Positions 6,469-58,974 of a DNA stretch of 64,000 bases are shown piece by piece. The notes below the pieces were generated by a model that saw only the letters and a program-made list of their open reading frames with translations, did no database searches and was not told the origin of the DNA. The position numbers and the translations under genes were made by a program. The stretch is taken from assembly GCA_020736575.1 (NCBI GenBank), contig JAGPYM010000068.1:51944-115943 (forward strand), read 5' to 3'. Source of the stretch: Thelonectria olida. Taxonomy: Eukaryota > Ascomycota > Sordariomycetes > Hypocreales > Nectriaceae. Each line of letters starts with the position of its first letter. Position 1 is the stretch's first letter.

Positions 6469-8342
6469 ATGGATTTTGCCCGAATTTACCTGGTCGTCCT
6501 CTGCGGCGCGTTGGCACTTCCACTGCTCCTGATCATCGCTCGTTTTCTCTACTCTACCCTTGAGCCACAACTTCGCGTCAGGGCTGCGCACTTTAGATAT
6601 TCAAAGCTAGCACTTGGCAGCATTAGTTTCGGAGTCTCGGGCTTACAGTTCTCAATACTTGTACTTTATCTTGCTGCTAATGGCTTTCTCCTTGGCGTCG
6701 GCAGCGGCGCCAAAGCAGAGTTGGAGAAGAGAGCAGCAGCGATTGCCTCGGCGAACCTCATGCTGGTCTTTCTAGGCGGTAGAACTAATCCTCTCGCGAA
6801 CTTCCTCCAGATCCCCCTCGCCTCTTATTATTTTGGTCACAGCTGGATTGCCATTGTTGCAACCTGTGAAGCCCTCCTGCACTCGGGCTTGGCTTTATCC
6901 CGACATCAGAAGTTCGATTCTCTGACCAAGTCCGGATATTTGGTGAGTGTTGGCATGCCCCCTTTAGTTTTTGTTCAATCTAATGCACTCAATTGGCTGC
7001 GAGTGGCTTATTCGCCATTGTCTTCTCTGCCCTCTGGTTTCGCAGGCTATTTGGGCGATTCTTCGGTCTATTCCACCTGCTCTGCTCTATGGCGGCGCTC
7101 GGCGGTCTTGTCTGGCACATCTGCCTGCAGCACTCGGCAGCAGCCAGGATCCCAGTCTTCGTGTCGTGCGGACTGCTGGGGTCCACTCATCTCTACCGGC
7201 TGGTCCGCATGTTCATCTGCGGTCACGCCGAAGGCTTCCTAGAAAGACCCTGGGATGACGGCAATGTCATGCGACTTCAGGTGAATACCAACAAGCCCGT
7301 CACTGTCTTTCCAGGCTGCTACTTCTACGTCTTTTTCCCTGGCCCCCTTCCCTTTTACGACTTCTTTCACGGCTACGCCATGATGCCCGTGTGGGGCAAG
7401 CCAGACCAGTACGTGACCGGCAAGACGTCCGATCTTACTTTTTTGATGTCCCGCACTCGAGGACACCATTGTAGATCTCTTGGTATTGTTTCCCCAGGCC
7501 AACGCCTTCGCCTCGACGGCCCTTACGGGAAGGACCTTCAGCTCCACACGTTTGAGACTGTTGTCCTCACTGCGAAAGGGCTGGGTATCTCGGGAATCTT
7601 ACCTTTCGCGCTGCACCTAGCTGCTCGGAAGCGACATGATAATCGCGTTCGTGACAAGTCTGCCAGGTTACGTGACTCAAGCGAGCCTGTCTTCGGTGAT
7701 CTGAGCCGGAATGTGGACTTAATATGGTGGTTAGAACACGATGATCAAGATAAATGGGTTGGCGATCAACTTCGATCCCTCCAAGAGGTTGATGCGAAAG
7801 TATGTTGCTCTTTCCCTGTCTTCTCCTCTATGCTGACACCTCGCAAGTTCTTGGTGGTTTGGTGTGTTTACCCCGTGAAAAGGAAGCCGGAACGCAAACT
7901 CCCCTTCGAAAAGAACGACTATTGGAAAAGGCGATACAGTTTTGGTTTTGAAGAGTTCTCGAGGGAACTTCGGCAAGAGGCACGATATCCCGGGCGAACT
8001 GTGGTTGTTGGTGAGTGGCGAAATGGTCAATGGTGTCGCCCACGTCTTTAACAGGTTATAGCTTCCGGCGAACAGAAATTCGTGAATACGATGCGGGGCA
8101 TAGTTGTGCAGAATACGACGTCGCATCGAATCATCGAATTTGCTAATCTGGAGTATTTTACGCCGCCAGGGGGGTTTAAATCTACATTCCGCAGGTCTCT
8201 GGACTTGCAGGAGACTCTGGTCAACTCGGGCGAATCCTCATTAGACAAGTCCCAGGCCACGCCAGTCAACCCGGACGGTATTGAGATGATGGAAATGGAT
8301 ATTGCTGAGCAACGCACCCAGAAGATTAGAGAGATGGTTTAG
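6469..8342 (+). CDS. Ferric reductase-like transmembrane protein (FRE)
   Basis: A flavocytochrome family member that moves electrons from NADPH through FAD and two haems across a membrane to reduce metals. Start ATG 6469 lies in a strong GCCGCCATGG context. Modelled exons are 6469-6942, 6996-7799, 7848-8010 and 8062-8342, giving 573 residues. Four bis-haem histidines are spaced correctly: H124/H138 and H185/H199. A GPYG motif (LRLDGPYGK) and a GxGxxG-like TAKGLGISG in the nucleotide-binding half are present. The usual HPF FAD motif is not recognisable. Introns 2 and 3 are canonical. Intron 1 (6943-6995) has donor GTGAGT and a CTAAT-like branch site but ends in TTG instead of TAG, so splicing there may fail. 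FRE genes are one of the five typical Starship cargo families. Confidence 0.8.
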
Positions 8343-8598
8343 GTGTAATAAATATAAAGTTTTGGCTTCCTTTTTTAATCTACTGGCTAGCTCTCTGCCC
8401 GCCTTATCTCACTACTCTGTCATCGCGCAGGCGGTCGATCAGTCCGAACCACCTGAACCCGCTAGTTATTCCGCACGCCAGCTTCACTCGACTCACCTCC
8501 CTGGACGATCTGATTCAATGATGCTCGCCCCGAGGCGGAGGATTTTATGTAATTAGTAATATATTATCAGGCCCAAGTTATAAAATAGAGTTCTCATT

Positions 8599-11131
8599 CT
8601 AAACCCAAGCGTCGCTACTGCCAGATGGCAAAAATCTGCCCAGCTCCTCGCTCAGCTTCTCAATCTCTGCAGTTAGACTGTTGCCCGTGGTCCCAGTCTC
8701 GCACAACAATCGATGATCCCTCCTTCCAAACGCACAGTCTAGCCCTTGATCTCTAATGAGCTTTTCCACTTTGTAAGGACAGTTGCTGATGCTCTGCTCC
8801 CCCATTAAGCTATCACGCAATCTCACATCTAATACCGTATCCATCGCGGAGACCTGCACCTCTAAGACTCTAGAAAATGATTCCCCTCTGCGGCAGCGGG
8901 CCAAGATCGCTGGCGTCACTAGGCTATCCCCAGTCCACTGAGCTTCTGCCCCACGATAGTGGATGCGGGCGCTTCTAAGGTGCAAGCCTGTGATCAAGTT
9001 CGTCATCTCTGGACCCGGAGTCAAACGGCACAAGAGTCGAATACAGGCTGCTTCTGGCGAAGAATAGAGCATTGGAGCAGACAAAAGCTCGATGTAGAAT
9101 AGGCAAGAAAGCATTCGCTCGGCACTGAGTTGAAAGGACAAGGCATCGTAAGGTCCGCCCATGTAGCGGGCGGTAAAGTCGGGTCCATGCTCACGCCGAG
9201 TGGCATGGATTCTAGTTGGACAGTCAGTTCCTGGCCAGAATGAGGTCCAGCATATGTGTTTTCTCACTCTGTACGCCTCCCAGCCATGTGATGGCCTTCG
9301 AATATCAGGATGGCGTTCATGCCCATACTGCTCGCCGTTCTTTCCATCTTCCAGGTTAGTCCCTTGCCGAAAGACACGAGAGATCGTTGCTTGTCAACCT
9401 TGGGATCGCCGAGGTTCTTCAGGTGGTATTGGCAATCGGACAAGCTCCATCCTTCCAAGAAGATGGTTTGAATAAAGAAAAGCCCTATTGAATTGGGTCA
9501 GAAAGTAAACTGTTTAGAGAAACGTCAGCTTACCAATTCCAGATCCAATAACGAGGTCGAAGTGCTTCCGTAGAGAAAGTGGTAAACCAATTGAGGATTG
9601 CAAGTCCTTTAAGAACTTAATCATCTCCCACTTATATTGAGACGTCCCACCCAACTCGAGAACCCTATTTCCACTAGTTGGTGGTTGTAGGAGGAGTAGT
9701 CCGTCATGTCGCTGCCCACACAGAGGGCATTGCGTGACTTGCTCCTTTGGTGAGTCGGCGGTTGCTTGCTGGGTGCCACATATAATCACGCAGGCGTCAC
9801 AAAGTCGGTGCCTGCATTCTAACTTTGTCGAAGCTAGCCTCATTAGACACACAAAACAAAACTCCTCCTCAGTGCAATCCCGCCAAGCAGCCTGGAACTC
9901 GCGGAGCAAAGAAAGATGTGCACATGCCGAGGAACCATCTTGCCGTTCTAGAGCGAACCGAATGAATGTTTCGCGGACTTGATCTAATAGTCCATCTTCG
10001 TTCAGGCTCCTCTCTACCCGACTCAGCGCAGCCCTGTAGTTCTTGTCAAATGTTAGGTGAGGGGGAAAGACTTGATTGTTGTCCAGGTTAGCGGAAAGTT
10101 AGCGGGGTTGCGGGGCTCTCGGCGGGCTTACAGTGCATGCCTGGAGGATGCGCATCAAGGTCAAGCGCCGAGGCCATGACGGGGATGTGATCGATATTGG
10201 CATCCTTCATCGACAAGATGAAATGCACAAGTGTCTCTGTCAGTTGCTGTGATGTTGGATTCTGGAGGCGAACTGCGTGATGAAAGTCAAGTTGATGGCC
10301 GGTGGACTTGGAGAATCGGAGCACCGCGGTCTGAAGAAGGTGCTTGAGGTGCTGGCTGCTAAACCCATACCCCGCGTTCTCGCGAGCAGCAAACGAAGCT
10401 TCTGTCTGAGACCAAAACTCAGAGGCGGCGTTCCAGGTCGGAATCAGTCGCACGCTCTCGAAGGCATTTTCACCTTGCAGGTATATAGGCGAATTCACTC
10501 CAGCCTTAACGACATCCTCGCCTCCCGAGACTGTACACATCAATCTTGTCCGCAAACGACTCTCGAACGACACGATCTCGCTTCGATTGCGCCAATGGAA
10601 TATGACCAGGATTCTCGGCGGTGCGGAGATGGCCCTCAACCTTGCTCGGCGACTCCAGGACGCCAATATCTCGATGACAGGCCCAACGCCGCCCAAGTCA
10701 TCGAGAAAGAGCAATACGGTTGAAGCAAATGGGAATAAAAGCTGCCAATACATGTCGAGAGCGAACTGCGCGACCTTATGCGGCGGGCTCTGAGGCGTTA
10801 AAGAGCACTGGAGAGGGTGCAGCGCCATTTCCCCGCCCGAGTATTGGTCATGTATTTTGTCGAGCCGGGTCTGGTTATGGAGCTCGCAATCCAATATTAG
10901 CGTTGCAAGCTGCACTGGTCGGAAAAGAATGCCAGCGCCTTTGGGGAATCTCTCATCTAGCTCAATGCTTCGATAAAAATGTCGCTTTTCCACGCCCCCA
11001 ATTGAAAGGACCATTCTGGGTTGAAAGGCTTGGTGGTCGAAGAGCTCATAAGCCCGACGGTGTTCGGTGATGACTGGAGACAACTCTTTTTGCCTGCCAA
11101 ATCGTAGTTCAATCCAGTTGTGAGACGCCAT
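8599..11131 (-). CDS. Patatin-like protein with RING-like zinc cluster (PLP), probably inactive
   Basis: Modelled as 788 residues in four exons: 10132-11131, 9534-10070, 9268-9484 and 8599-9211. All junctions are canonical and keep frame. Residues 1-330 are the variable N-terminal part of fungal patatin proteins. Residues 405-451 form a Cys/His cluster (CFVC, ECRHRLCDAC, CPLCG) like a RING finger. From about 480 a patatin-type segment follows (RVLELGGTSQ ... SLRKHFDLVIGSGIG), then the C-terminal part containing FYIELLSAPM. Active patatins have a DGGGxR oxyanion loop and a GTSSG-like GxSxG nucleophile elbow. Here these are LGGTSQ and GSGIG (509-513), with glycine in the nucleophile position. 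Lipase activity is therefore unlikely. It is convergent with FRE and divergent from DUF3723, and is a typical Starship cargo family. Confidence 0.8.
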
Positions 11132-11368
11132 GTTTCATGGTAGGTTGACCTGTCTGAGCTGATATCGGCATCTGCGCCGATATTTGAGTGTCGCACCTGC
11201 ACCGACGCTTTCTGGTTACTGTTTCCTGTTTTCGTGGAGGACCGCACAATCCGGCTGCTAGCGCCGTTTCTCCATCCCGTGTCCTAATTTGGAGCAGCAA
11301 GTAAAACACATCAATAAGGACGAGGTCGGCGTGCCATCACATCATGAGAAGTCCAGCAACTCAACATC

Positions 11369-14300
11369 ATGGAACTTGTCGGAATCGTCCGTTGCCCAGT
11401 CCGCTCGCTCATTCCTTATGGAGAGGGCAGACAGGTAAACCTCGATACGGTCAAACGGCTGGCAAAGTGCTTCGAGAAAACAAAATGCAGGCCTGAGGAA
11501 GAAGACAACTTTATTCGCGGAGTCATCACCTACGACGACCTCAGGCAGATTGTCTCGACACTGGGGGTCTCTGAAAACGCCCTCAAGCGCACCACTCTTC
11601 AAAGGAGTTTTCCACTTCTATCCGGGCACAACATCGCCTGTCTTGAAGGACGACACAGAATCCGGGCTGCAATCGAACACAAACCGCTTTCGTGGTGGGT
11701 GGTGAAGTTATTGTGCGTCCAGGGGAGCTGGATAGAATTTCCTCTAAAGATAGCTCTTGCATCCATCGACCCCCAGATTATTCAAGATCGAATTGAGGCT
11801 ACCTCACGCGAGACGCCCTACTCGGATGCCGAGGTCTATCGGTTAGTCCGCAAGTACATGAAGAACCACGACAAGGCGAGAGTGGAAGGGTGTCTGAGCC
11901 GGCTATCGCCCCCTAAGCAGGTCAGTTTGAAAGGCCTATTGAAGCGACCGCAGCTTGTTTGCGATCTCGACGCCCTGATCAAGTTCCCGGGGGTGATAGG
12001 AGGGCTCCAACTCGGCAACATCCACAAGTACCTCGGCCTTCACGTTGATGAGAATTTCTCCTTTTGCTTGCAACACATTCTCAAAGTTTGGGAGTTTATC
12101 ACTGACAACGATCCACGGGTGAACGCTGCCATCAGCTTGTATGATGTCAAGTGCCTACAATTCCGCGCTCCGATTACCAGTCACGGAGACAGGATGGCAA
12201 TCAACCGCATGTTTGATGAAGGGACACTGCTGGAGGGCATAAAGGACCTGGACTTGCGAGATCGAATCCGAAAAAGGGTGCTCTCTATTCAGTTCATCAT
12301 CCCCAGCGTTGAAACATTCCACGAAAACATGAAGTACATCTCAATAGCGGCTAAGATCCTGAGAAGATACCTGATGGAAGTGCCTACCTGCAAGCGCAAT
12401 AAACCAACGCTATTTGAGAGCTTTGCGAGCAACTGGAAGAGCCCTGGGGTACAATACGTCGAACACAACTATGGTGAATTCTCGCAAACCACACAGACCC
12501 CAACAGCATGGCATGCCTACAAAACTGTCTTCCTCGCCGCCCTCAGGGACTTTGCGCGGCTATCTTTCGAGCACCCCCGACAAGACGTGCGTGGAGAAAC
12601 CATGCCTGCGTTTCCTGAAGGACGTCGAATTACTTATCTTGCCCGCCTTGCTCTCCAAGTCGGCTTCGAGAACACCAAGATTCAAGGGGCACTAGAGATG
12701 CAAACAGGCCACCCCGAAGTTGCCCAATACAAGCCTAAAGTTGGCCATCCCGCGGATTGGAGGGGAGGCATACCGTTTACGAAAAGCTACCTTGAGCTGG
12801 TATCACAAGCCTTTCTTCCACAGCTGTCCGGTCCTGTGTCAAAGGGAAAAGCTATCACTCCCCTGTATGTCATTAAAGATACAATCGATGCATTCTTTGG
12901 AGCGGGCAATAGGGCAATTTGCGATAACTCCGGCGACTTAGGTCCTCTAAATTCTCTAACGATGGACGAAGCCTATGGTGATCCCACCACGTTTACTCCT
13001 CCTGAGATCAGCAAACCAAATCAAAGCAAAGATCTTCCAATCGAGAACCGCAGTGATGATGGATCAGTTGACGCTTCAGAGACCCAGAAACGCAACCAGA
13101 CCTCCACGTCAAATGCCTTGAGACTCAGAGCTCGCCGTATTTCGAAAAGCCAAAGACACAGTCAGGCTCCTAAGAAACGAATTTCCAGGATACAACAGCG
13201 TACCCTGGACGTTGATTCATTGCAGAGAATTGACGTGATGCAAGCTGAGCGTCTTCATGTCGAGCCCTCAAATGAACCGCAGTACACAATCACCAGGGAC
13301 ACTGGTCGCACTCCTCCAACGTCTAGTATTCCCGAAGAGCCAGACACGATACAGCCAGAAGCCACTTCTCCAATTGAGCATCAACAGGTGGAATTGGCAG
13401 AACTGTTAGAGGACTTTGAAGGCGAGTCTCCAAGGGCGCTGGGGCAGACTATTTTCAGGGCTGATGACCGCACTCCTCGCGTGTCCACCGTACCAGAGAT
13501 GCCAAACGAAATGCAGACGGAAACTCTGTCCCCAGGGGACCCAGCGCAGTTCGAGTCGGTAGTTGCCTCGGCGGCCTCGCCCAGCGAGCCTCCAAAGACC
13601 CCAGGGGAAACTGTGTTCAGGGAAACCACCCATAATCCATCTCCAACGTTTGTAGCACCAGAGGAATCAGATGTAACGCAAGCGACTTCGCAGACCGGAT
13701 CACCAAGAGAACACCAGCAAGTTGAACCATCAGAATCCCCTAAAATTTCGTGGTTGCGCATGTCCACAATGCCGAACAGATCCGAGAGGATTCCCCTCGC
13801 CATCCCAGTGGGGCATGAGGAAGGGGAAGCGACAGTGGGTCGCAGGATTGTACCGATATTCAGCTTGGCGAAGGAGCCAGAGCAAGCTAATCCGACAATT
13901 GCTGAGCCCTCGCGGACACGCGGCTCCACAATGCCAAACAGGTCGGACAGGTCTCCAGTGACCCAAACAACCCCAAGTGAATCCAGTCAAATTGAGCTAG
14001 CAGCTGATTGTGGCACCTCAACGACGCAGGCTCCCATAGTTGGTAATATGCCGGATGCTCTCCAAACAGGCTACACCCATTCAGGAGAGCCTGGCCAAGC
14101 CAAGGTTGCAACAGATTCCGCGTCAATGCCGGACAGATCTGGTAGAGAGACTGCACATGGCAAAGGGCCACCGAATGTCGAGTCCTCGCCGGCAAAGAAT
14201 CTTGTCTCAGCAGATCTAGAACTGTCAGGGGGCGCCAAACTGTTCAAAATTCCAGTACAAATAGGAACGTTAGGAACATTGCCACAGGTTCGAAAGCGGA

Positions 14301-14551
14301 GATTGGAAGACGACCTCGTGGCTAATCCAACGACTGTGGTAAGCGAGAGAGCGCAGGACCTTCAGAGAACAAGTTCCAGGAGCAGCGCTCTGATTAGCCC
14401 GATTCGCGGTATGCAGAGACAACGCCAACAAAAGGGAGAAACACGAAGGGAAATCCTTATCCGATCAGACAAGGGGGGTGAGAGGGCGACTAAGCGACCT
14501 CGGCTAGAGGTGCCTGAGCGCGAGAATCAGTCCTCGACGGAAGGAAAATAG
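11369..14551 (+). CDS. DUF3723 family protein
   Basis: An uninterrupted 1060-residue frame from ATG 11369. The N-terminal 460 residues match the layout of fungal DUF3723 proteins: an opening VPLRSL-like block, then CLEGRHRIRAAIE at about 91-103 (reminiscent of the ParB-type GxHRxxA motif), then WWVVKLL and a long helical region. The C-terminal 580 residues are disordered and rich in Thr, Ser, Pro and Glu, with loose repeats around TMPNRSDR / TVPEMPN / SIPEEPD and a final basic block (KRPRLEVPE). The molecular function of DUF3723 is unknown; the family is known as common Starship cargo. The gene shares a 237-bp divergent promoter region with the PLP gene. There is no sign of degeneration. Confidence 0.85.
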   Translation: MELVGIVRCPVRSLIPYGEGRQVNLDTVKRLAKCFEKTKCRPEEEDNFIRGVITYDDLRQIVSTLGVSENALKRTTLQRSFPLLSGHNIACLEGRHRIRAAIEHKPLSWWVVKLLCVQGSWIEFPLKIALASIDPQIIQDRIEATSRETPYSDAEVYRLVRKYMKNHDKARVEGCLSRLSPPKQVSLKGLLKRPQLVCDLDALIKFPGVIGGLQLGNIHKYLGLHVDENFSFCLQHILKVWEFITDNDPRVNAAISLYDVKCLQFRAPITSHGDRMAINRMFDEGTLLEGIKDLDLRDRIRKRVLSIQFIIPSVETFHENMKYISIAAKILRRYLMEVPTCKRNKPTLFESFASNWKSPGVQYVEHNYGEFSQTTQTPTAWHAYKTVFLAALRDFARLSFEHPRQDVRGETMPAFPEGRRITYLARLALQVGFENTKIQGALEMQTGHPEVAQYKPKVGHPADWRGGIPFTKSYLELVSQAFLPQLSGPVSKGKAITPLYVIKDTIDAFFGAGNRAICDNSGDLGPLNSLTMDEAYGDPTTFTPPEISKPNQSKDLPIENRSDDGSVDASETQKRNQTSTSNALRLRARRISKSQRHSQAPKKRISRIQQRTLDVDSLQRIDVMQAERLHVEPSNEPQYTITRDTGRTPPTSSIPEEPDTIQPEATSPIEHQQVELAELLEDFEGESPRALGQTIFRADDRTPRVSTVPEMPNEMQTETLSPGDPAQFESVVASAASPSEPPKTPGETVFRETTHNPSPTFVAPEESDVTQATSQTGSPREHQQVEPSESPKISWLRMSTMPNRSERIPLAIPVGHEEGEATVGRRIVPIFSLAKEPEQANPTIAEPSRTRGSTMPNRSDRSPVTQTTPSESSQIELAADCGTSTTQAPIVGNMPDALQTGYTHSGEPGQAKVATDSASMPDRSGRETAHGKGPPNVESSPAKNLVSADLELSGGAKLFKIPVQIGTLGTLPQVRKRRLEDDLVANPTTVVSERAQDLQRTSSRSSALISPIRGMQRQRQQKGETRREILIRSDKGGERATKRPRLEVPERENQSSTEGK

Positions 14552-15181
14552 AGTGTTCCAGTCTAGCATGGATTAATTGAAGCCAAAAAAAAAATAACGC
14601 AAAAAAGAATGCGATCCTCGCGAGTTTCCTCTTTTTGATAATGGTCAAGGTCAGCTGCGGTGCAATGTTCAAGCCACCAACGTTGATTTTACGAACTTCT
14701 CCATAAAGTTGGGTCATCAGGGGGCTGATTGGGTTACCGACTGACTGGAACACGCTAAGCCACCGTCTGCTCTAGCTCAGGGAGACCACACCACCACCTC
14801 AGAAGTTCCGCGCATCGCCGAAGATACCTAGTTCCGTGATAGCCGCTGACATGAACTCTACATCCTTCTCACCAAAGCCCCGCCACGCATGTTTCCATCA
14901 TGCAGAAACTCGAAAAGGGAAGGGGAGGGGCTGATGATGTCATCTTCAGAGTCGCATTTATTCCGCTCGTCCGGCCAGTACCCAATTCAGACCATTGTAT
15001 CACTCCCTGATAATTTGCTGCACAAGAGAATGGGCCGTGACGTTTGTTGTCTCGCGGCTCACGCGCCTTATGAATACATCACACGTGGAGAGGACTAGGA
15101 GCGTTTCTAAAGTGCTTGCATCCAAGTAGTATTGGGTGGGTCCAGCCCCCTTGTCCGCGCCTCGCCCGCACTTAGCATCTA
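14552..15181. other. Intergenic, no gene recognised
   Basis: Between the convergent DUF3723 and coiled-coil genes. A short A tract near 14585 could belong to 3' processing signals; nothing else is recognised. Confidence 0.5.
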
Positions 15182-15845
15182 TCACATGACTGCTAACTCA
15201 GCCGCCTGACTGCCACTGTGGTCCTCCAGGTCCATCATCTCCTTTTCCAACTGCCTCGCGAAGCGGGTGAAAAATTTATCCATGCCCTTCTTGATTGTTT
15301 CGATGGAGTAATTCACCTTCTCTTCGTGACTTGTTCGCTGCAGTTCAATCTTTTCTCCTAAATTTGTAAGACACGTCTGCAAATCCCCTAACAGATGGTC
15401 TACACGTTCAAGACGATGTTCCATGCGTTCAAGTCGATATTCCACACGGTCAATCCGAGTCTGCATTTCTGTGCTGTATGCAAATGGATCAGCTTCTGCG
15501 AGAACGATAAGAGGATAATGCCTACCCCTGGTTGCCGTTATCAAGCTGTTCTGGCCGTAGAACAAGATTCAGCGTGCATGGCTGAGGGGTCCCTGTCCCC
15601 GGGGTGCCGATAGATGTCGATGGTACACCCGACCGGGTCACTGGAGGTGTTCCAAAGGCGTTCTGTTCACCGAAGGAGTTGGAATGAAGTTGATTTTGAA
15701 GAGGATGGGTAGTGGTGTTCATGTCAAAAGTAGGATCCCAGGAGTCAAAGAACCCGCTGTTGGCAACCTGTTTCTCGGCTTGTGCCCAGAAAGGACTTCC
15801 AGAGATCCCACGGTCCATGTTCGATTGGTTTTGCGGATTAAACAT
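15182..15845 (-). CDS. Small coiled-coil protein
   Basis: A 203-residue protein in two exons (15526-15845 and 15182-15473) with a 52-nt intron (GTAGGC...ATACAG, branch GCTGAT). The N-terminal half is a Ser/Thr/Pro/Asn-rich segment (MFNPQNQSNMDRG...). Exon 2 is a long charged heptad-like helix (RIDRVEYRLERMEHRLERVD) expected to form a coiled coil. The encoded size and two-part design recall the gene at 17606-17964. Function unknown; oligomerisation through the helix is inferred. Confidence 0.6.
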
Positions 15846-16151
15846 AATGGGTTACTTGAAAGCTTGCTCAGTGTCGGGAAACCGGGCCACTTGGCTTTTA
15901 TGATCAAGAAGGTGCATGTGTATGTGTGTGTGGAGGCCAGCCTCCCTGGCAAACACCGAGCTATGTTGAGAACATGTCGTCTCAGTAAGCGCCCTGCTAA
16001 TCCTGTCAATGTCCTTTATTCTGCTTTGCGTTTCCTGCTTCTGTTTCCAGCTTTTGCAAAACGTCCCAGTGCCGGGTATCCAAGAGTATAAGACAGCCCC
16101 GATACCTCATGAGATTCATTGACGAGCAGCCTCGACAAATTTCATTCCAAG

Positions 16152-17251
16152 ATGAAGCATATCTTCTCTATCAACCTTCTGATTCACGGCGGACTCGCCA
16201 TGGCGAACCTTCCCTCCATGTGCCTTTACAACCCCGTCGAACTGGTAGCGGGCCTGGACCTAGCTGCTATGAGGTGGGCACCCGATCCAAAGCGAGCTCT
16301 AACCTGTTGGCTGACAGCGCCAGAACTGCATATCCCCTATCAGAGCCCTGCACAGCAACAATTGACTTTGATGACCGGGACTTCCTTCCTATTACGTATA
16401 CATTCAAGCCAATCTCCTGTGATGGTCCGGAGCTAGTGCAATTTACTGTGCCGCTCGGTGCTCCATCTGGAGAAGCGTATATCACCTGGTCAGCTCTGTC
16501 AGGGTCGTTCTAATGATAGCACGAGACTAACTATCACTGCAGGCGATGCGCGAGTGAATTTTTGATGTGCGGCCGTGCGCTTATTTTGGGTGGCCAGTCG
16601 GATCGCAGCCTCAATCTTCAAGTTGACGGACACGAAGGACAGGTCATCTGCGAGGGAGGATATACCTTGACCACCACCACTCCAGGTTCCTCGACCCTGA
16701 CAACTGTGGTCACTAAGCGCCTCACCAAGCCAAGAACCGTTCCAACTGAACTTACCACCACACCAACTAAACTTGCCACCACACCAACTAGTGGGGGATT
16801 CCTTGGTGACAAGGAGACCAGCGGTGCCTATGCTCCGGATCGGACCAGTGTTATTACCACAACTGACGTGACTAGCGTTGTAACTGACGCTACTGCAACA
16901 TCTGGTACTCCTGTCACAACTAAAGCAGCCACAACAACTGAATTTTCTACAACTGATACCAGGGCGGCAACTGACACTTTCACGGCGAATGAGACGACTG
17001 GCACCGCTGTTGCAAGCGGCGTTACGCGGGATCCGATCGGTAAGTCATGATCTCGTATGATCAACATCATTCGTTTATTCACCCATAGTTTTTTAGTCGA
17101 GACAACTAAAGAGAAGGTCGAGAGTAGCCCAGCTGTGACCAGCGGGGCTACTACGGCTCTTAACCGACCGATTATTCTCACCACAATCTTCTCCACTGTC
17201 ACACTTCTTCATACGGTCACTACTCAAGCGAGCTCGTGTCCTAGCTTATAG
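16152..17251 (+). CDS. Secreted Ser/Thr-rich surface protein, probably GPI-anchored
   Basis: Modelled as 312 residues from four exons: 16152-16273, 16324-16488, 16543-17039 and 17097-17251, with introns of 50, 54 and 57 nt. A signal-peptide-like start (MKHIFSINLLIHGGLAMA) precedes a small Cys-containing domain (residues about 25-125, with SEPCTATIDF, YITWRCASEF and GQVICEGG). Then comes a long Thr/Ser/Pro-rich stalk (TTTPTKLATTPTSG etc.) and a C-terminal hydrophobic segment (PIILTTIFSTVTLLHTV) typical of GPI-anchored fungal wall proteins. The Cys-domain pattern resembles a common family of fungal extracellular proteins of unknown role. The final location is inferred from composition. Confidence 0.65.
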
Positions 17252-26148: not shown

Positions 26149-26160
26149 CGTGGCGCCAGA

Positions 26161-48456: not shown

Positions 48457-48509
48457 AGAGGAACTTGGGAGGTGCCACTACATCCTTGACTTAGTTGATG
48501 GTCGCGTTA

Positions 48510-48796
48510 TTAGTAGCAAGCCTCCATCGTCCTGCAGAGTAACGAGGCTAGGTCCTCCGCTTTTAGATCAACCTTCCACTCCTTTTGCGTATGTAAAGGG
48601 GCTTCTTCGAATCGAGAAGAATAAATGTTAACAGCCCATCGTAAGGACCACGGACTGAATTCCACATCCTTCCTTCCTCCAAATGACCTTTCAGTTTGCT
48701 GTCTACCTCTAGATGCTGAGCAAGCTCTTCAGTGAACCCTTTACTGCCTCGTAACTCTCCTCTTGTTCTGATCAACTCCTCGAGCAACGCACGCAA
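48510..48796 (-). pseudogene. Relic of the C-terminus of a JmjC-family gene
   Basis: Minus-strand reading gives GFTEELAQHLEV...HLEEGRMWNSVRGPYDGLLTFILLDSKKPLYI, then in another frame DLKAEDLASLLCRTMEA followed by a stop. This parallels the last 100 residues of the protein at 23413-26148 (EELARRLGMDV...HLAAGRAWNTICGSCDGLLPFILVNSNNPFHI ... LEAEDREILLHRTKEIAD). About 60 residues are missing between the two blocks and nothing upstream is preserved. It is a decayed, internally deleted paralogue fragment immediately downstream of the Spok-like gene. Confidence 0.75.
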
Positions 48797-48822
48797 AGGG
48801 AACGAACATAGAGCAACGGCTA

Positions 48823-51302
48823 CTATACTGACTGCAGGCGACCCGGTAGGAAACCACGTTTCCGGTTGTAATTCCCAAAATCATCTCCCTGCCGTTTCCT
48901 CTTCTCCCCGGATACCTTGAAAAGCTGCTTGTGTTTGAGGTTTGGAAGAAGGGTTGCGCGGTCGAAATCGACGAGCATGACGCGGCAGCGCTCGTCGTTC
49001 CAGAGCCGGTTGGCGTCGCGCTCGTCGCCGTGGTCGACGCCCTCGGCCCAGACGGCCTGCGAAGACCGCCGCACTTCCACCGCCAGGTCTGCCGCGCCAG
49101 CACCCGCGGTCACCGTGTCCGCCATCGTCTCCCCACCCCACGACATCAGCATCATGTGGAAGACCCTGGCCCCGCCAGGGAGTATGTAGCCCCGGCCCAG
49201 CCGCGCGAGTCCCAGGTGCACCGGTACCACCTCGCCCTGGAGCCTGTCGAGCCGCGCGTAGATACGGCTCTCGTGCTCCAAGAGGCGAGGATGGTCAGGC
49301 AGTGTTCCCTTGCCGACAAAGGTGTACCCGTACGGCGCCAGCTCCAGCTTGAAGAGCACGCCCGTCGCTCCCGTCTTGCCCCAGCCGTCCAACGCCTCGC
49401 AGTCTCGATACGGGTTCTGGCGGAGCCGCTCGCCCACTAGGCGGGCGAACTCATCGGCGTCGATAGGGTGCCGGGTGCCACCTTCGGCGGTACGATGCGA
49501 GAGCACGTTCGGGCAGTCGGCATCAAGATCCCAGCCTCTCTTGAGGCCCAACAGGCAGGCCTGCGTGCAGTATTTCTTGGCAGGTGCCGACTCGGACATC
49601 TCGGCATCCTCTTCCTCTTCCCCCCCCCGGCTTCGGAGCTGCCGCTCGATGGGCCTTCTTTCCGTTTGCTGACGTCCGTCCTTGCCCAAGATCGGGACAG
49701 ATCACCGTCCGGCCTGTCGTCTTCTTCGTCCTCCTCATCTCTACGAAGCACCGCCGTGGCCCTGCAGGACGACCTTGACCGCAACGAGACCTCTCGGCCG
49801 GCCGGGACCGCGTTAGACATGAACTCCGAGCCATCCGTTGCTTGCGATGACGACGCCGAGGGCGAGTCCGTATCCTCTGCCCCTAGAAGATACGCCGCAC
49901 CGTCGTAGGGCTCCCTCCATTTTCTCAGTGTTGCCTCAGCCTTCCGCGACGCCGCGTCGAGTGAAGCTCCCTTGAGAGCTTCAGATCGGAGACTCAATAG
50001 GCAAAAGCTAGCCAGCTGAGCCGCTGCCGTATAGGACACCTTGTCGTCAGCCCAATCCCCGTCTGACGTTTCGCCCACGTCCTCATCCGGCACGCACGGA
50101 TGACAATATAGCGTCTGCGGGTCGGCTCGGTCGATATGAAGGAATAACAAAGACTCGCCGGCAGCAATATAGCCATATGCAACCTCATACCGTACCATGT
50201 AGTCGAAGACCTGTGTCAGCGCCATGGCAATCAGCGCTTCCGCCTTGTCCTGTCCCCGTAGCTCGGTATCGCTCCGAGACTTGTTGCTGCTGATTCGCTC
50301 CATGACCTCCATAAACAGCTTCTCCTTCGCAATGGCTGGCTTCAGATACTCCAACTCAACCTTGTGAGCTGCCTTGTAGTCGTAGACAAACGCTAGGCTC
50401 TCGTCTCCGCCCAGGCGCGTACGGACACCCGCTCCGTCAGGTTTCGTCGGTGGACGCTTGACTCTCTGCTCGGACGCCACTCGTTTGTTCGGTCCGGTCC
50501 GGCGCCGTCGCTCCTGCCTTTCATCGCTCGGGTCCTCCTCCCCAACCTTACTACCATCGTTAGGTTGCGTGAAATCCCGGATGTTGTTGCTGAATCGTAG
50601 CCCCATACACTGATATTCCTTGCGCAGCTCCTCTTCGTCCCAGACGGGACGCAGAATTTCCCAGACAGGATCTTCCACAGCAAGCTTCTCAAAGTGATCG
50701 ACGGCATTCTCGTTGCCTGCCCGTTTGCGGTGGATCGTCGTTCCTAGATCTCTGGTCGTACTCTCTTGATGGAAGAGCCGCCTCTTCCCACAGACCGTCC
50801 TGATTGCCTTAAAATGATGTTGTCGGGTGTTCGTAAAGCTGGTCCAGGGACGAAGCCACTTAGGATAGTATTTACCCTCGACCTTCGTAAATCCCGTCGA
50901 TGACTTGGATTTGTCGGCGAGCCCGAGTTTCTTGTAGAGGTAGAAGTGGCAGTTGTATAGATATTCTTCCAGTGTCGTCCTCTGGTTCTTGCGTCGCTCT
51001 GCCTCTTCTCGTGCCTGTGCCACCTCTTTCTCGCGTCGCTCTGCCTCCTCTCGTGCCTTTGCCTCCTCTTTCTCGCGTCGCTCTGCCTCCTCTCGTGCCT
51101 TTGCCGCCTCTTTCTCGCGTCGCTCTGCCTCCTCTCGTGCCTTTGCCGCCTCTTTCTCGCGTCGCTCTGCCTCCTCTCGTGCCTTTGCCTCCTCTTTCTC
51201 GCGTCGCTCTGCCTCCTCTCGTGCCTTTGCCTCCTCTTTCTCGCGTCGCTCTGCCTCCAGCTCCTGCCGGAGCTGGAGGATCTCGTGAAGATAGTCGGAC
51301 AT
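48823..51302 (-). CDS. Spok: Spok-like spore-killer homologue, reading frame broken at a G9 tract
   Basis: Domain order matches Spok meiotic drivers. An N-terminal coiled coil (residues about 1-110) contains six 14-residue repeats (AERREKEEAKAREE). A nuclease-like domain carries the PD-(D/E)xK-type VYDYKAAHK near residue 308. A Cys cluster (KKYCTQACLLGLKRGWD) leads into a kinase-like domain with HGDERDAN and LVDFDRA at about 48961-49032. In Podospora the nuclease part is needed for killing and the kinase part for resistance. Here the frame from ATG 51302 runs through the nuclease, and the kinase lies in another frame. The switch sits at a run of nine G on the coding strand (49620-49628), between the two functional halves. 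The first frame continues as unrelated residues to a stop at 49437. The cause (mutation, slippage or sequencing error) is open. Confidence 0.8.
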
Positions 51303-51984
51303 CGTGGGTAGGGGCGCGGGATATCAAGTGTGTAGCGACCGGTTGCTACGGTTGGGCGAATCCGGCGAGGAAGAATCCAAGGACGGGCACCGCATCGGCG
51401 GCGAAATTAGGGGCCAGTCGCTTTGTTGCCTTGTTCCGGGCACTCGGTCACGTGAAATCATTTTTAGGTGGTTGGTGACCAAAAAAGGCGAGTGTTACAG
51501 TGGGACAGATTCGCTCAGGCGCAAGTCCCCGGGGATCGCTCAATCTAAGCGGGGTCAGCTGTAACAACGTGCCACACGGGAACGCTGTGAGTTTCGAAAT
51601 GGTTCAATAATTTTGTATGACGTCAGACCACATCTGGTTTTGTATCCTTGGTCCAATAATATAGGCCGGAAGCCGGAAGCTGGGCTGCAGTATGGTCCCC
51701 GCATTGTGGTGTTGGACGCGACCGCGCGCAAGGCGAGGCCGTGTTTGCGACACCAAACGCGCCCTGTGCCGATCGCGATCCCACGAGCTCACTCCACCCT
51801 GTGTGCGTCACATCAACACGATCCTCGAGGCAGTCAGCTAACAGCAGCGGAGACGTCCACTCGAATGCTGACACGGGATATACACGCATGGTACTGGTCG
51901 CGCTTCTATACCGTGGACCTGACTGTGGCTGGAGAGTTCTAGCTCTACCATCGACCAGGGACGAAATAAGATCAGGAGATGACC
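51303..51984. other. Intergenic, promoter of Spok-like gene and left flanking repeat
   Basis: No gene recognised. It includes the left copy of the 58-bp direct repeat (51594-51652) that recurs at 56679-56736 on the other side of the HET-S/NWD2 pair. Confidence 0.5.
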
Positions 51985-52851
51985 TTAATCGAAGATGCCC
52001 CGCCCGCCGTACTGATTCCCTATGTGTACCGCGGACGTACCTTTGGCCTCGACGGAATCCGCTAGGTTCGCGGTCCGATCCGTGATACCCGTGCCACGAG
52101 CCAAGGCAGTCTCGCTCCACTCGTTCCCGACCCGCACCCTCGCCATCTCTTCACTCTTGATGTCCTTTGCATAGTTTCTCCCCGCGATTCCCTCAATCTT
52201 CTCCGTAACGGCCTCGGACAAGACACTATCGGTACCGGCAGCGGCGTCCTGCAGAGCCATTAAGCTCGGCTCGTCGTCCACCCCCTCGATTTCTAGCTCC
52301 ACGAGCTTGCGACGCGTGGTCTCTATGGGAAATAGCTTCTCTAGATCATCTAGAAATCCCGTAATCTGCTCTACCAGCCTGTCGAAGTTCTTGCCGTCGT
52401 ACAGCGCCCACGCCGCCTTCTTCAGCAGGCCCGTTCGCTTCTGTCTCTGGCGAGCGACAACCCCCAGTCGGCCGTGCAATCCCCGAACCACCGGCTGCAT
52501 GTCCTTGTCTTCGAAGCGCATCAAATCATCTTGTCTCGCATTGATCTCGTACCGCTTCGATGATTTCTGTACGGTCTGGAAGAGCAGTTCGATCTCTTCC
52601 AGTATCCCTTGGACCTGTCGAGAATCTCTATCATCAGGCGCGTCGGTGGCGAAGCGTGGGTCGTCGTTGATCGCGACTGCCTCGCCCCATCTACCCAATC
52701 GGATCTTGGCGATGTCGAGTTTCAGTTGGCAGCGTTCGAAGTCTCGGCCGAAATGGCGGCTCAGTTGGATGTAACCGAAGCAGTCGACGCAGTTGTTGAA
52801 CAAGGCCGCCACGCTCAAAGCGCCGGCCACAGTGCCAAAAACCTCGGCCAT
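51985..52851 (-). CDS. het-S: HET-S homologue: HeLo domain plus amyloid prion-forming domain
   Basis: An intact 288-residue, intronless frame, the same length class as Podospora HET-s/HET-S. Residues 1 to about 225 are a HeLo domain (start MAEVFGTVAGALSVAALFNN; RCQLKLDIAKIRLGRWGEAV), a membrane-targeting cell-death domain. Residues about 226-288 are the prion-forming domain with two pseudo-repeats: RVRVGNEW (238-245) and AVHIGNQYGG (274-283), 36 residues apart as in HET-s. Residue 33, which separates the pore-forming HET-S (His) and inert prion HET-s (Pro) alleles in Podospora, is His here, so this is HET-S type. It is divergent from the NWD2-type gene across 234 bp, as in the Podospora pair. 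In the family, amyloid templating by NWD2 triggers membrane insertion and cell death. Confidence 0.9.
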   Translation of the reverse strand: MAEVFGTVAGALSVAALFNNCVDCFGYIQLSRHFGRDFERCQLKLDIAKIRLGRWGEAVAINDDPRFATDAPDDRDSRQVQGILEEIELLFQTVQKSSKRYEINARQDDLMRFEDKDMQPVVRGLHGRLGVVARQRQKRTGLLKKAAWALYDGKNFDRLVEQITGFLDDLEKLFPIETTRRKLVELEIEGVDDEPSLMALQDAAAGTDSVLSEAVTEKIEGIAGRNYAKDIKSEEMARVRVGNEWSETALARGTGITDRTANLADSVEAKGTSAVHIGNQYGGRGIFD

Positions 52852-53085
52852 GCTGGTCGTGTGAGGTGAATTGATAAGGAGTTTTCTGTGGCTGAAGGGA
52901 GCTTTATTGGTGTCAGCTGCGCCGTGTGAGGGGATGGTGCGGCTGACGAAGAAGGCATCTTAGTGGTTCACCTAAGCGCCGTCCGCAGACAACGTCGGGC
53001 CAACATTCACCTCGGGCGCGAATGCCCAGCCTGATCCTGAAGAACCTCAACATGACGACGAACAACCACGATACTGGCAGAAATA
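52852..53085. promoter_or_regulatory. Bidirectional promoter between HET-S and NWD2
   Basis: A 234-bp shared upstream region between divergent start codons. It also contains the start of a short upstream frame (53052-53114) whose end overlaps the NWD2 start codon. No individual motif can be assigned. Confidence 0.6.
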
Positions 53086-53114
53086 ATGAATTCCATTGGG
53101 CATGCGGCCGTTGA
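53052..53114 (+). promoter_or_regulatory. Upstream ORF overlapping the NWD2 start
   Basis: ATG at 53052 opens a 20-codon frame ending TGA at 53112-53114, out of frame with and overlapping the NWD2 ATG at 53086. If the transcript starts upstream of 53052, this uORF would reduce NWD2 translation. The transcript start is not known. Confidence 0.45.
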
Positions 53115-56100
53115 GGGCAACGGCAAACTCCAGGTGGGGAATACCTACATCAACAACTACAACGAACCGAACCGCAATCGATGCCTTGCCGACCTACGAT
53201 TGACCGACCCCCGCGTTGAAAAGACGCGCATCGAGCATATAAAGGGTGGCCTTCTTAAGGACTCGTATAAGTGGGTTCTAGATCATGACGAATTTCGGCG
53301 ATGGCGAGACGGCAGAGACAGCCGGTTGCTCTGGATCAAAGGCGATGCCGGCAAGGGCAAGACAATGTTGCTCTGCGGGGTCATCGACGAACTCTTGCCA
53401 ACCTGCGCACATTCCGTCTCGTTTTTCTTCTGTCAAGGCACCGATTCCAAACTGAATCATGCTACTGCCGTATTGCGAGGCTTGATATACCTTTTGTTGC
53501 TTCAGCAACCATCCTTGATCTCCTATATCCAAGACAGATACGACCATGCAGGTCGTCGAGTCTTCGAGGACACCAACGCGTTCTATACCTTATCCCAGGC
53601 TCTGGCTAGTATGCTCCGCGATCACCGTGCGGAGGGTTGCTGCATGGTTATTGACGCTCTAGACGAATGCGAGACTGGTCTGCCACAGCTCTTAGACTTC
53701 ATTGTCAAGGTCGAATCTACGTCTGCTCGCGTCAAATGGATCGTGTCAAGCCGCAACAGACACGAAATCGAGCAACGGCTGTATCTCGCCGCCTCAAAGA
53801 CGAGGCTAAGTCTTGAGCTGAATGCACACCATATCCGCCAGGCCATCAATACGTACATCGACCATAAAGTCGCGTACCTCGTATCGCTCAAGGACAAGAA
53901 GCCACTGCAGGACCAGGTTCGGGATGAGATGCGAAACAGAGCCGATGGAACCTTCCTCTGGGTGGCTCTCGTCGCACAGGAACTTCAGAACGTTCGGAGC
54001 TGGGATGTTTTAAGAGTTCTCAAACAGATGCCGGCGGGCCTGGTGCCACTCTACGAACGAATGATGCTTCACATTCAGCAACTGCAGCCTGACGATAGCG
54101 ATTTCTGCCGCCTCATTATTTCGGCGGCAACTGTCGCTTACCGGCCGCTCCGCTTGTGTGAGCTGGGCGTGCTATCTGGTTTGCCTCGAGATGTCTCCGA
54201 TGACCTTCGATCTGTGGTAGATATGTGTGCCTCGTTTCTTACAATCCGGGATGACCATGTCTATCTCATCCATCAGTCCGTCAAGGATTTCCTGACGAGT
54301 AAGGAGTCGAATGCAATTTTCCAGCATGGATTTGCAGCCGCACATCATACCATGTTCTTGAAATCGATACAGATCATGTCTGATACGTTACGACACGATA
54401 TGTACGACGTACGCCATCCCGGCACGTCTATGGACCACTTCCGCCTGCCTGATCCAGACCCGTTGGCCCCGGTACGGTACTCGTGCGTCTATTGGGTTGA
54501 CCACCTAAACGATGCCATCTCACACAGGACTTCGACGCCCATCAACGACCTCCATGATAACGGCACAGTCTACAAATTCCTCAGCAAGAAGTACCTCTAC
54601 TGGCTCGAGGCGCTGAGTCTTCTCCGAGGCATGCCCGAAGGAGTGGTTGCGATGACGAAGCTGGAGACATTACTCGTAGGCGGATTGACTATCATCGTAT
54701 GGCACCGATGCACTAATTAGTATCTCTATTAGGAAGAGTCCAATAAGTCCCGCTTATTCGACCTCATTCGAGATGCACGCCGGTTCATCCTATCACACGG
54801 GTGGGCGATAGGGAACGCGCCTCTTCAGGCATATACGTCAGCGCTTATATTTAGTCCTAGGCATAGCATAACGAGGAAACTGTTCGAAGGGGAAGACCCA
54901 AACTGGATTGTGGGTAAACCGGCTATGGCGGAGGATTGGGATGCATGCCAGGCGACGCTCGAGGGCCACGGCGGTTGGGTTCAGTCGGTGGCCTTCTCGC
55001 CCGATGGCCAGCGCCTCGCGTCGGCATCAGACGACCACACCGTCAAGATCTGGGATGCCACGACGGGCCACTGCCAGGCGACGCTCGAGGGCCACGGCGG
55101 TTGGGTTCGCTCGGTGGCCTTCTCGCCCGATGGCCAGCGCCTCGCGTCGGCATCAGACGACCACACCGTCAAGATCTGGGATGCCACGACGGGCCACTGC
55201 CAGGCGACGCTCGAGGGCCACGGCGGTTGGGTTCGCTCGGTAGCCTTCTCGCCCGATGGCCAGCGCCTCGCGTCGGCATCATACGACCGCACCGTCAAGA
55301 TCTGGGATGCCACGACGGGCCACTGCCAGGCGACGCTCGAGGGCCACGGCGGTTCGGTTGAGTCGGTGGCCTTCTCGCCCGATGGCCAGCGCCTCGCATC
55401 GGCATCATACGACCGCACCGTCAAGATCTGGGATGCCACGACGGGCCACTGCCAGGCGACGCTCGAGGGCCACGGCGAATGGGTTCGGTCGGTGGCCTTC
55501 TCGCCCGATGGCCAGCGCCTCGCGTCGGCGTCATACGACGGCACCGTCAAGATCTGGGATGCCACGACGGGCCACTGCCAGGCGACGCTCGAGGGCCACG
55601 GCGAATGGGTTCGGTCGGTGGCCTTCTCGCCCGATGGCCAGCGCCTCGCGTCGGCGTCAGACGACGGCACCGTCAAGATCTGGGATGCCACGACGGGCCA
55701 CTGCCAGGCGACGCTCGAGGGCCACGGCGGTTCGGTTGAGTCGGTGGCCTTCTCGCCCGATGGCCAGCGCCTCGCATCGGCATCATACGACCACACCGTC
55801 AAGATCTGGGATGCCACGACGGGCCACTGCCAGGCGACGCTCGAGGGCCACGGCGGTTGGGTTCAGTCGGTGGCCTTCTCGCCCGATGGCCAGCGCCTCG
55901 CGTCGGCGTCATACGACCACACCGTCAAGATCTGGGATGCCACGACGGGCCACTGCCAGGCGACGCTCGAGGGCCACGGCGGTTGTGTTCGGTCGGTGGC
56001 CTTCTCGCCCGATGGCCAGCGCCTCGCGTCGGCGTCAGACGACGGCACCGTCAAGATCTGGGATGCCACGACGGGCCACTGCCAGGCGACGCTCGAGGGC

Positions 56101-56547
56101 CACGGCGGTTCGGTTGAGTCGGTGGCCTTCTCGCCCGATGGCCAGCGCCTCGCATCGGCATCATACGACCACACCGTGAAGATCTGGGATGCCACGACGG
56201 GCCACTGCCAGGCGACGCTCGAGGGCCATAGGGTCTTCAATAATATCCGTTTCGATCAGACAGGCGCTCGTCTTCTTACGGATGCTGGCACTTTCGACCT
56301 GAGCGTGCCCTCGCCCTCGCCCTCGCCACCCGATGCACTGCCATCCGGTCATCCGCATCACCCGCGTCAAGGCTATGGCATCAGCGCCGATGACGTATGG
56401 ATCACGTATCAAGGTCGGAACCTGCTCTGGCTCCCGTCAGAGTATCGTCCAAATACGTCAGCAATCGCGGCATCGACTGTCGCTCTCGGCTGCATGTCGG
56501 GACGGGTCTTACTATTCCGGTTCACGGGGGACGCTCCTCCTCGTTAG
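53086..56547 (+). CDS. nwd2: NWD2-type NLR: amyloid motif, NACHT and ten WD40 repeats
   Basis: Exon 1 (53086-54675) and exon 2 (54733-56547), split by a 57-nt intron (GTAGGC...CACTAAT...CTATTAG), encode 1134 residues. Residues 5-22 (GHAAVEGNGKLQVGNTYI) form an r0-type amyloid motif matching the GN-containing repeats of the adjacent HET-S. The NACHT ATPase has Walker A GDAGKGKT (86-93) and Walker B MVIDALDE (187-194). The C-terminus carries ten 42-residue WD40 repeats (126-bp units) that are almost identical, plus a degenerate eleventh. Variation is confined to a few sites: G/E-W/S/C-V-Q/R/E in one and D/Y-D-H/R/G-T in the other. In the family, ligand binding by the WD40 array drives oligomerisation and templates HET-S. 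Without the intron the gene would be split wrongly at 54720. Confidence 0.9.
54946..56230. repeat. 126-bp coding minisatellite (WD40 units)
   Basis: Ten consecutive 126-bp units differing at only a few codons, even at silent positions. Such identity implies recent unequal exchange or gene conversion. Most frames reported on both strands across this region are shadows of it. Confidence 0.95.
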
Positions 56548-57406
56548 GGCGCTACACTAACCTGTCAGTCAGTATATTGATCTATCGGTCAATCCTCTGT
56601 TCTATAGGTTTTTATTTGTCTCTTTCTTTTGGAGGGTCGTAGGGGTCGGCGTGTATTTACATTACTATCTTAGTTACGTCGAGATGTTCGACAATCTTGT
56701 ATGACGTCAGACCTCCTTTAGTTTTATATCCTTGGCGAATCCCGGGCGGAATAAATTTCATTCATTCATTTAAGTGCATCTTCACACCTCTACCAGTATT
56801 GACAAATAATGGGGCGCAGTGAGCATGAGGGCGTAGTGGTATAGGGCTGAGTTGCATTCTGGGAGTTGAAGAGTATTATTAGTCCACAAGTCGTTTGTTT
56901 TGAAGCTTTAGCCAAACAAGACTTAGGAAAACATCGGGGCAACGAAGCAGCTACCGACGCGTCATTTATGGATGTTACGACACAGCCACACACAACCGTC
57001 TTCGTGTTGGTCCTTTTGTCTCCTTAATCACGCGCTGACTGGTGTGATGGAGCCATTTCCTTGCTATGGACTCGGGTTGCAAGCATAAATAGGACCCCTA
57101 GAATCCCCTCATCACCGTGCTTCAACCCCATCTGCGAATTCACAATTGGTGTGGAGATGATATGTCTCGAATTCCTGAGTTGGGGGTGACTGAATTGACT
57201 ATCAGAAGTGTTCAGATAGGGTAGCCTTCGGAAGATGGGTGCCTTCCGCTGGCGTGGTTGGCTTGGCTGATGTCGGTGTCGTTGACCTCGAGGCTAGAAA
57301 CGGCAGAGAAAGAACAGGGCACTGGCTTTGTGAAGCTCAAAGCTTCGATGAATCTCGAAAGCAATCGACAAGTGAGATGGCGAGATACGACGAGCAGTAA
57401 TGAGAC
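56548..57406. other. Intergenic between NWD2 and the MYB gene
   Basis: Contains the right copy of the flanking direct repeat (56679-56736). No gene recognised. Confidence 0.5.
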
Positions 57407-58974
57407 TCATAAAACAAACTTCTGAAATTTTCCCGTCAAAAATTGGCCCTTGTTCTTTCCCAACATGATACCCCAGTGTTGCTTCACCCCATTTTCTGAG
57501 CGGTTTAACTTGCGCGCAATCTGAAAGTCTGACAACATACCTACATTCTTCAGTCGCCTGAGGAGGTCCTCCTCCTGCTTCGTCCACCTGCAACGTTGTG
57601 TACTTCTGTGTCGTTTGCCTTTAGGGCTTCCCGTGGTGAACTCGCTGGCGTCACAGGCACTGTCGTCGTCGCCATCGCCATCGCCATCGCTGTCGTCGTC
57701 GCCATCGCTATCGCCATCGCTGTCGTTGTCGCTGTCGCCGTCGCTGTGGCTGTGGCTGGTGCTGTGGCTATCATCGTTGCTATCGTCGCCGACAGGCCCC
57801 TCGGTTCCATCCCTGGTTTCCAGAGTGCACTGAACGCTCCCGTCTGGCAACGTTCTCTGAGCTTGGCCGTGTCCTAGTTTAGCCAGCAGGCTTGAGATCA
57901 TCTTCTGCATCACAAGTAACTCAAGCCGCACTGATTCTGCTTGCTCCGTCGGCATAGAAATAAGCTCTGCCGACTGGCTTGCAAGACCAGACGCTATCGA
58001 GCTGGGGCCCACGCAAGAGCCTGGCCGAAACTGTGGGCTGGAGTCCCCTGGCACCTGGCTCGATTGGTTGGCGCTCCCGTTGACGCGAGGGTCAGCGGGG
58101 ATCGGGCAGATGTCAGTGGATTCGAGTCGTGGGGAGGAATGCGACTTGAAGCCCGATGGTCTCGGCCGCTTCGGTGAACGGTAGACTTCTGAATCGTGCC
58201 CCTCAGATCCACCAGGAACGTCACATTCCGGCAATGACCGCTTTGATGAAAAGGTTTCGGTACCTGGCCCCGGGGCAATCTCGGTCGAGCTGATTCCTAC
58301 GACGCTCTCCCGCTCGGCGATTGCTGCAGATGCTAGGACGCCTAAGGCCTCGGCACTCTGAGCAAGGAGTCCACTGTTCAACTTGGAAACTGAGACCTCT
58401 TGGGCGCGAGCATCATTGGATACCGAGACCGGGAGCTCGCAGCTTTGACGAAGGTCATCTCCATGTAGCGCAGGCTTAGGTGTCGCATTAGATATGTTCA
58501 AGTTGGCCGTCTGGCTGCTTGAATCTGGTCTGTCGTCTTTGATGTTAATGGTGGAGTCTGGGAGTATTTGTTAGCTTCCCCCATAGTTCTAAAGTGCAAA
58601 GAGTTCTCACCTTTACCTCTCCAAACAAAGGCGTCTATCTGGTAACGGGGTGAACATGCTGAAGCTGGTGTACAGGGGCTTGAGACGTCCGTGACAGAGG
58701 AGCAGAAACTCAAGCATTCCTCGACAGAGGGAAAATTGGCGTATGGGTCTCCAACGCCGTCCAGGCCATCTGTTGGACTAGAATCGCTCTCCTCAATATG
58801 ACTGCAATTGCGATCATCAGCTGGGCGCTGAGGCGTGACGGGGCTAAGACGCTCGCCATCAGGAGGGGCGGATATTGAGTGCTCCTCCGTCCGCTCACGA
58901 GGTTTGGCGTGTCGTCTCCGCTCAGCTCGTTGCTTCTGGCGGAAAGGATCATATGGCTTGAATGTCAGGGACAT
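57407..58974 (-). CDS. MYB/SANT-type DNA-binding protein
   Basis: Exon 1 (58617-58974) and exon 2 (57407-58557) with a 59-nt intron (GTAAAG...GCTAACAAATACTCCCAG) encode 502 residues from ATG 58974 (MSLTFKPYDPFRQKQRAERR). The middle is disordered, with basic patches (RSPKRPRPSGF), a leucine-rich helix (LELLVMQKMISSLLAKLG) and a long Asp/Ser/Gly tract encoded by a GTCGTCGCCATC-type repeat at about 57655-57760. Near the C-terminus is a single MYB repeat: RWTKQEEDLLRRLKNVGMLS, then FQIARKLNRSENGVKQHW. MYB proteins with this layout are a typical Starship cargo family. DNA binding is inferred. Confidence 0.8.

Follow-up and report, generated by a model that had tools for sequence, protein, structure and literature searches.

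Starships are giant transposons of ~20-700 kb that carry cargo genes. Their captain, a DUF3435 tyrosine recombinase, lies at the 5′ end, and flanking direct repeats of 2-12 bp occurred in 19 of 20 elements according to the excerpted text of one report (PMC12153272). Enterprise, the Spok block of Podospora, is a Starship carrying Spok genes, and 33 of 408 FuSpok genes of Fusarium were located inside Starships (both from extracts of PMC12693581). In SPOK proteins, killing depends on the nuclease part and resistance on the kinase part, as stated in passages of PMC6660238. A further system of Podospora, HET-S/NWD2, has an adjacent, divergent gene layout (extracts of PMC3321046; the pair also in PMC9815663). 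Here, we analyzed a 64,000-bp stretch of the genome of Thelonectria olida, a member of the Nectriaceae (the window), which an earlier note made from the sequence alone had taken for Starship cargo. That proposal held: a DUF3435 captain, both borders, a target-site duplication and an empty site were found, and the window almost certainly covers the captain-distal two thirds of a complete Starship with a single captain.

Captain and borders of the element

The source contig (C131) is 115,943 bp long; base 1 of the window corresponds to C131:51944, and the window reaches the contig end. Genome-wide searches covered the 165 contigs (52.5 Mb) of one T. olida genome, and the T. olida database protein B0T10DRAFT_280677 was 100% identical over 88% of one open reading frame (ORF) of the window. 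The element spans C131:18509-112536, and its 94,028 bp with cargo fit the size range of Starships. With orientation set by the captain, its portion within the window is 1..60593 on the plus strand, as delimited by empty-site comparison. The earlier view that the whole window is cargo was thus correct up to 60,593, the last 3.4 kb (from 60,594) being target DNA.

The captain (C131:18876-21318, plus strand) lies 33 kb upstream of the window. It is the first gene inside the left border, with its ATG 367 bp from that border, and is directed toward the window, so that the check proposed with the original claim, a search for a DUF3435 recombinase as the first gene at one end, had a positive outcome. 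Pieces 1-86, 86-213 and 213-418 of the DUF3435 model (PF11917) matched C131:19577-20907 on the plus strand and together covered the whole model. Genome-wide, the DUF3435 model had 35 exon-level matches, distributed over 13 contigs; the three consecutive matches on C131 are exons of one gene, and the remaining matches are on other contigs. The spliced model has five exons and encodes 744 amino acids without a stop. Its best database relative, QQX98_011954 of Neonectria punicea, was identical at 692 of 704 aligned positions (98%) and agreed across the exon joins, which supports the exon model.

At both borders the G + C content (GC) changes abruptly from ~0.5 to <0.2, while GC inside the element is 0.514. 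The two flanks belong to one repeat, which has been degraded by repeat-induced point mutation (RIP), and 29 other copies of it were compared. When the left-flank query was extended to base 1741, 32 bases beyond the element start, the match stopped at query base 1707-1709 (contig 18,506-18,508) in 23 of the 29. For an empty-site test, 400 bp of left flank (ending TATACT) and 400 bp of right flank (after the second TATACT) were joined and aligned with the same copies. The best-scoring alignment spanned the joined flanks in 26 of the 29 copies, and in 22 of these no gap occurred in the 15 bases next to the joint. L036, with 66% identity, is a doubtful member of the 26, which leaves 25 clear spanning copies. 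Most spanning copies read AATATACTAGTATA, or nearly so, at the empty site. A count of 29/29, obtained from the longest alignments, was dropped, as six of these were poor AT-rich matches with 65-66% identity, and bit scoring was used. Because other copies of the repeat run across the joint, the flanks are two halves of a single repeat.

The sequence TATACT occurs once in each empty site but twice around the element, on the left at C131:18503-18508, upstream of the window, and on the right at 60594..60599 of the window (contig 112537-112542). The search for a target-site duplication therefore yielded one of 6-7 bp, the longer figure counting the preceding A, (A)TATACT. A nucleotide search from the left end of the element gave four matches off the contig; all four fell in the target-repeat portion of the query, and the element portion had no match. 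Border finding through other copies of the target repeat needs one genome, and could be used where a second strain is lacking.

The composite RIP index was -0.60 inside the element versus +1.23 and +1.04 in the flanks, and 93 of 94 one-kb tiles of the element had a negative index, showing that the element is not RIP-mutated. From 60600..64000, up to the contig end, the window consists of the RIP-mutated AT-rich target repeat and further repeats, as identified by a GC of 0.127, the joined-flank alignments and copies elsewhere. The simplest reading is that the landing site would already have been RIP-mutated when the element inserted. In the mechanism we propose, the DUF3435 recombinase would move the element as a unit into a TATACT-containing site within the probably degraded repeat, and insertion would leave the 6-7 bp duplication. 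The borders, duplication and empty site were observed directly, and the recombinase family points to the recombination step. Within the right flank, inverted copies of one sequence at ~60740-60920 and 62130-62320, identified by eye and by self-matches, enclose ~1.6 kb; the target probably contains another RIP-mutated transposon here.

These borders also bear on a different explanation, namely that a GC-balanced gene island with a solo DUF3435 gene and accessory genes lies between RIP-degraded compartments and is not one mobile unit. DUF3435 genes are often solo, as noted in extracts of PMC12134995, and the number of matches in this genome would agree with that. On the other hand, the left and right flanks make up a single repeat, which runs through uninterrupted in 25 of 29 other copies, and TATACT is doubled here only. 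Since cutting out an island that had arisen in another way would leave no restored repeat behind, we regard the gene island as extremely improbable.

Several observations weigh against a complete Starship with the cargo first described for it. The joint was not spanned by the best-scoring alignment in three of the 29 copies (L031, L043, L044), and the empty sites are paralogous repeat copies in the same genome, not the same locus of another strain. An AT-rich target makes a 6-7 bp duplication weak on its own, and it is the repeat comparison that carries the border argument. The candidate terminal inverted repeats are poor, with brief stretches (TTATYCAA and CGGCT) common to both ends in a gapped, imperfect alignment whose score was equalled by six of 1000 random internal pairs. 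As for the cargo, none of the 17 genome-wide matches to patatin (PF01734) is on this contig, the Myb_DNA-binding match (PF00249) at 57410-58570 is below its cut-off (E 0.057; 14 bits against 24.4), and the N-terminal and kinase parts of the Spok homologue do not share a reading frame. With these points included, we retain the reading of a fully bordered Starship in Thelonectria, the empty site of which can be read where the target repeat recurs elsewhere in the genome.

The HET-S/NLR pair and the Spok homologue

The earlier note had placed an NLR at 53.1-56.5 kb and a HET-S/NWD2 incompatibility pair in the window, and domain searches agreed with both, the pair being predicted from sequence. 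The HET-S homologue (51985..52851, minus strand) has 288 amino acids from the first Met and combines a HeLo death domain with a two-repeat prion-forming domain; the Pfam matches at 51988-52959 on the minus strand scored 194.9 bits for HeLo (PF14479) and 103.1 bits for HET-s_218-289 (PF11558). The NWD2-type NLR (53086..56547, plus strand; ~1134 amino acids) consists of a HET-s-like motif, NACHT and WD40, and matched NPHP3_N (123.5 bits) and WD40 repeats at 53056-56544. Its WD40 array is made up of 126-bp units (10.2 copies, 95% matches). The two genes are head to head and divergent, with starts ~235 bp apart; the HET-S frame is open, as is that of the NLR given one inferred intron.

The pattern [VLI]x[VLI]GNx[YFW], which was composed after its three instances had been seen, matched only three times when all six frames of the element (181,044 residues) were scanned: two matches are in the HET-S C-terminus, and the third is at NLR residues 15-21. 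Two results count against the pairing: plain alignment of the NLR N-terminus with the HET-S C-terminus was not strong, 157 of 2000 shuffles being as good, and PF11558 was not reported in the NLR ORF at E 0.01. In a pair of this type, the NLR, once activated, would act as a template for the HET-S prion domain and so trigger the HeLo pore. No HET-S/NWD2 pair in a Starship was described in the titles and abstract openings searched, a scope that lay outside the founding Starship papers and gives no proof of absence; in the available text of PMC12134995, each of the names HET-S and NWD2 appears a single time, among the cited references.

The Spok meiotic-driver homologue (48826..51323, minus strand) is in two reading frames, an N-terminal ORF at 49440-51323 and a kinase-side ORF at 48826-49701. 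In protein searches, the N-terminal ORF was 51% identical to Podospora SPOK4 over 75% and, among the best 120 of 166 relatives, 85-92% identical to Fusarium, Zalerion and Bombardia proteins over 71-87%. The kinase-side ORF matched these proteins in their C-terminal region; in the comparison with a proven SPOK, it was 57% identical over 252 aligned residues. The deposited T. olida protein (565 amino acids) likewise ends without the kinase part, and a full-length relative of 752 amino acids on another T. olida contig is 89% identical. The break may be either real or an assembly error. The Spok-like driver named at first is confirmed as a SPOK4 homologue, but does not have nuclease and kinase in a single intact frame.

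Taken together, the cargo looks built for persistence, in that it would combine the HET-S/NWD2-type pair, the split Spok and captain-adjacent NLR-type ORFs with ~40 repeats. Its likely effect would be to punish or mark cells or spores that do not have the element, and these are kinds of genes that fungi use to kill differing cells or spores. It is quite possible, if not our preferred view, that the cargo is merely gathered material and that the element does not depend on the death genes for its upkeep. Consistent with this, Spok is split and patatin absent, and fragments of the 3′ block, with HET-S/NLR among them, recur at many places in the genome (55 genome matches to 48.5-60.6 kb, 68-94% identity). 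The open frames of the pair and the confinement of the HET-s-type motif to it, albeit with a post hoc pattern, argue the other way.

We consider it unlikely that the element is an inter-genus Starship with a working HET-S/NWD2 amyloid pair, plus a kinase-less Spok killer held in check by the resident full-length Spok. If true, vegetative self/non-self recognition would be a property of a transposon, and carriers would react against strains without the element or with another version of it. Short of this, a HET-S/NWD2-type pair and a Spok on one element make it testable whether allorecognition and spore-killing genes help giant transposons to persist and spread.

Accessory cargo

Of the 115 ORFs of at least 90 amino acids, 67 were scanned against Pfam, together with two overlapping ORFs outside that list. 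Matches at E 0.01 or better were obtained for 19 of the 67, 15 of them above the curated cut-off. The other 48 were without a match, in agreement with the statement that many of the remaining genes look like orphans. Five families typical of Starship cargo (FRE, PLP, DUF3723, NLR and MYB/SANT) had been said to occur together; FRE, DUF3723 and NLR were found, PLP was not, and MYB/SANT is weak.

The ferric reductase (FRE) consists of two ORFs at 6400..8048 on the plus strand, and matched Ferric_reduct (PF01794) with 28.9 bits, above the cut-off of 28, and NAD_binding_6 (PF08030) with 17.9 bits, under the cut-off of 22.2. The DUF3723 protein, a 1067-amino-acid ORF at 11348..14548 on the plus strand, scored 251.1 bits (PF12520). 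The DNA from FRE to DUF3723 had one other match in the genome at the search sensitivity used (513 bp at 93%).

Between these genes, the supposed PLP (8602..11134, minus strand) comprises a RING-like ORF and two flanking ORFs beside DUF3723 and divergent from it. It gave only RING-finger-like matches, under their cut-offs, and no patatin domain was detected at 8602-11134; the PLP assignment was not confirmed. PLP (patatin) is a common accessory gene of Starships and is not required. The ORF at 10091-11134 on the minus strand, which has no Pfam match and which may resemble the N-terminal part of fungal RING-patatin proteins, has eight related places elsewhere in the genome. In five of the eight, a DUF3723 match lies no more than 25 kb away, and three of these are divergent from it within 7 kb (C2:1002142, C77:545879 and C83:391690). 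Because its relatives recur near DUF3723, this family looks like a DUF3723 companion, and may possibly be its regular partner.

Near the right end, the MYB/SANT-like protein (57410..59076, minus strand) was recovered as the faint, sub-threshold match given above; ORF 58501-59076 had no Pfam match. MYB did not occur in the papers mentioning Starships that were searched for it, which thus offer no support for that part of the claim. Other cargo in the window includes an F-box-like protein (21917..23086, plus strand; PF12937, 27.3 bits), a JmjC-domain protein (23416..26211, minus strand; PF02373, 49 bits) and, by Pfam, ankyrin. Upstream of the window, the cargo consists of NLR-type ORFs beside the captain, ankyrin proteins and a Sir2 protein. 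The captain-adjacent NLR-type ORFs contain NACHT_N, NPHP3_N and 39 DUF7104 stretches, and the repeat array there (L011:5443-9356) has 96-bp units in ~41 copies with 78% matches.

The window also contains simple arrays. At 40121-40600 there are 53 copies of the 9-bp unit GTGAAATGA, and shorter ATTTCACTC-type arrays occur at 43654-43748. GC skew reaches 0.198 in the 40-42 kb tile.

Relatives of the captain and comparison with known systems

The near-identity of the captain to N. punicea QQX98_011954 is a concrete case in which transfer between genera can be tested, and we lean toward recent horizontal movement of the Starship between Thelonectria and Neonectria, as opposed to inheritance within each, which would add to the reading given above. 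In a captain tree of 22 rows (the T. olida captain and 21 chosen from 116 found), the captain of T. olida was sister to that of N. punicea with 100/100 support, 0.012 changes per column apart, and the N. ditissima captain (53% identical) grouped with Tolypocladium and Ilyonectria destructans. Against transfer, no N. punicea Sir2-like protein was present among 41 matches to the Sir2-like cargo gene, 21-25 kb downstream of the captain; the N. punicea captain contig is 45 kb long and may end before that gene, or the gene may differ. We treat transfer as a lead, at which the captain identity hints. No Starship in Thelonectria or Neonectria was reported in the literature searched.

Other DUF3435 genes in the T. 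olida genome include relatives of the captain at L005 (C82:239 kb; 75% identity) and L006 (C81:595 kb; 65% identity). N. punicea QQX98_012110 is 97% identical to L005 over 78 residues and 87% over 71. A different DUF3435 family, 22-23% identical to the captain, is represented by L001, L002 and L003 (C98, C81 and C82); its copies are ~96-97% identical to each other in DNA and perhaps mark a recently active second element.

Like the Starship superfamily as a whole, the element described here has a 5′ captain, short direct repeats and tens of kb of cargo. Nothing about it is different in kind from known Starships, the host and the target repeat being what differ. Enterprise is likewise a Starship with Spok, whereas the Spok here is frame-split and has a HET-S/NWD2-type pair ~0.7 kb away. 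The FuSpok genes are homologues of the same gene in Nectriaceae (an F. oxysporum protein is 89% identical over 71% of the query), but the Spok here is in two frames. As in HET-S/NWD2 of Podospora anserina, a HeLo-prion protein and an NLR with an N-terminal HET-s motif are adjacent and divergent; the pair described here, in contrast, sits inside a bordered Starship. What is distinctive of this locus is the presence of a HET-S/NLR death pair and a broken Spok within one bordered Starship.

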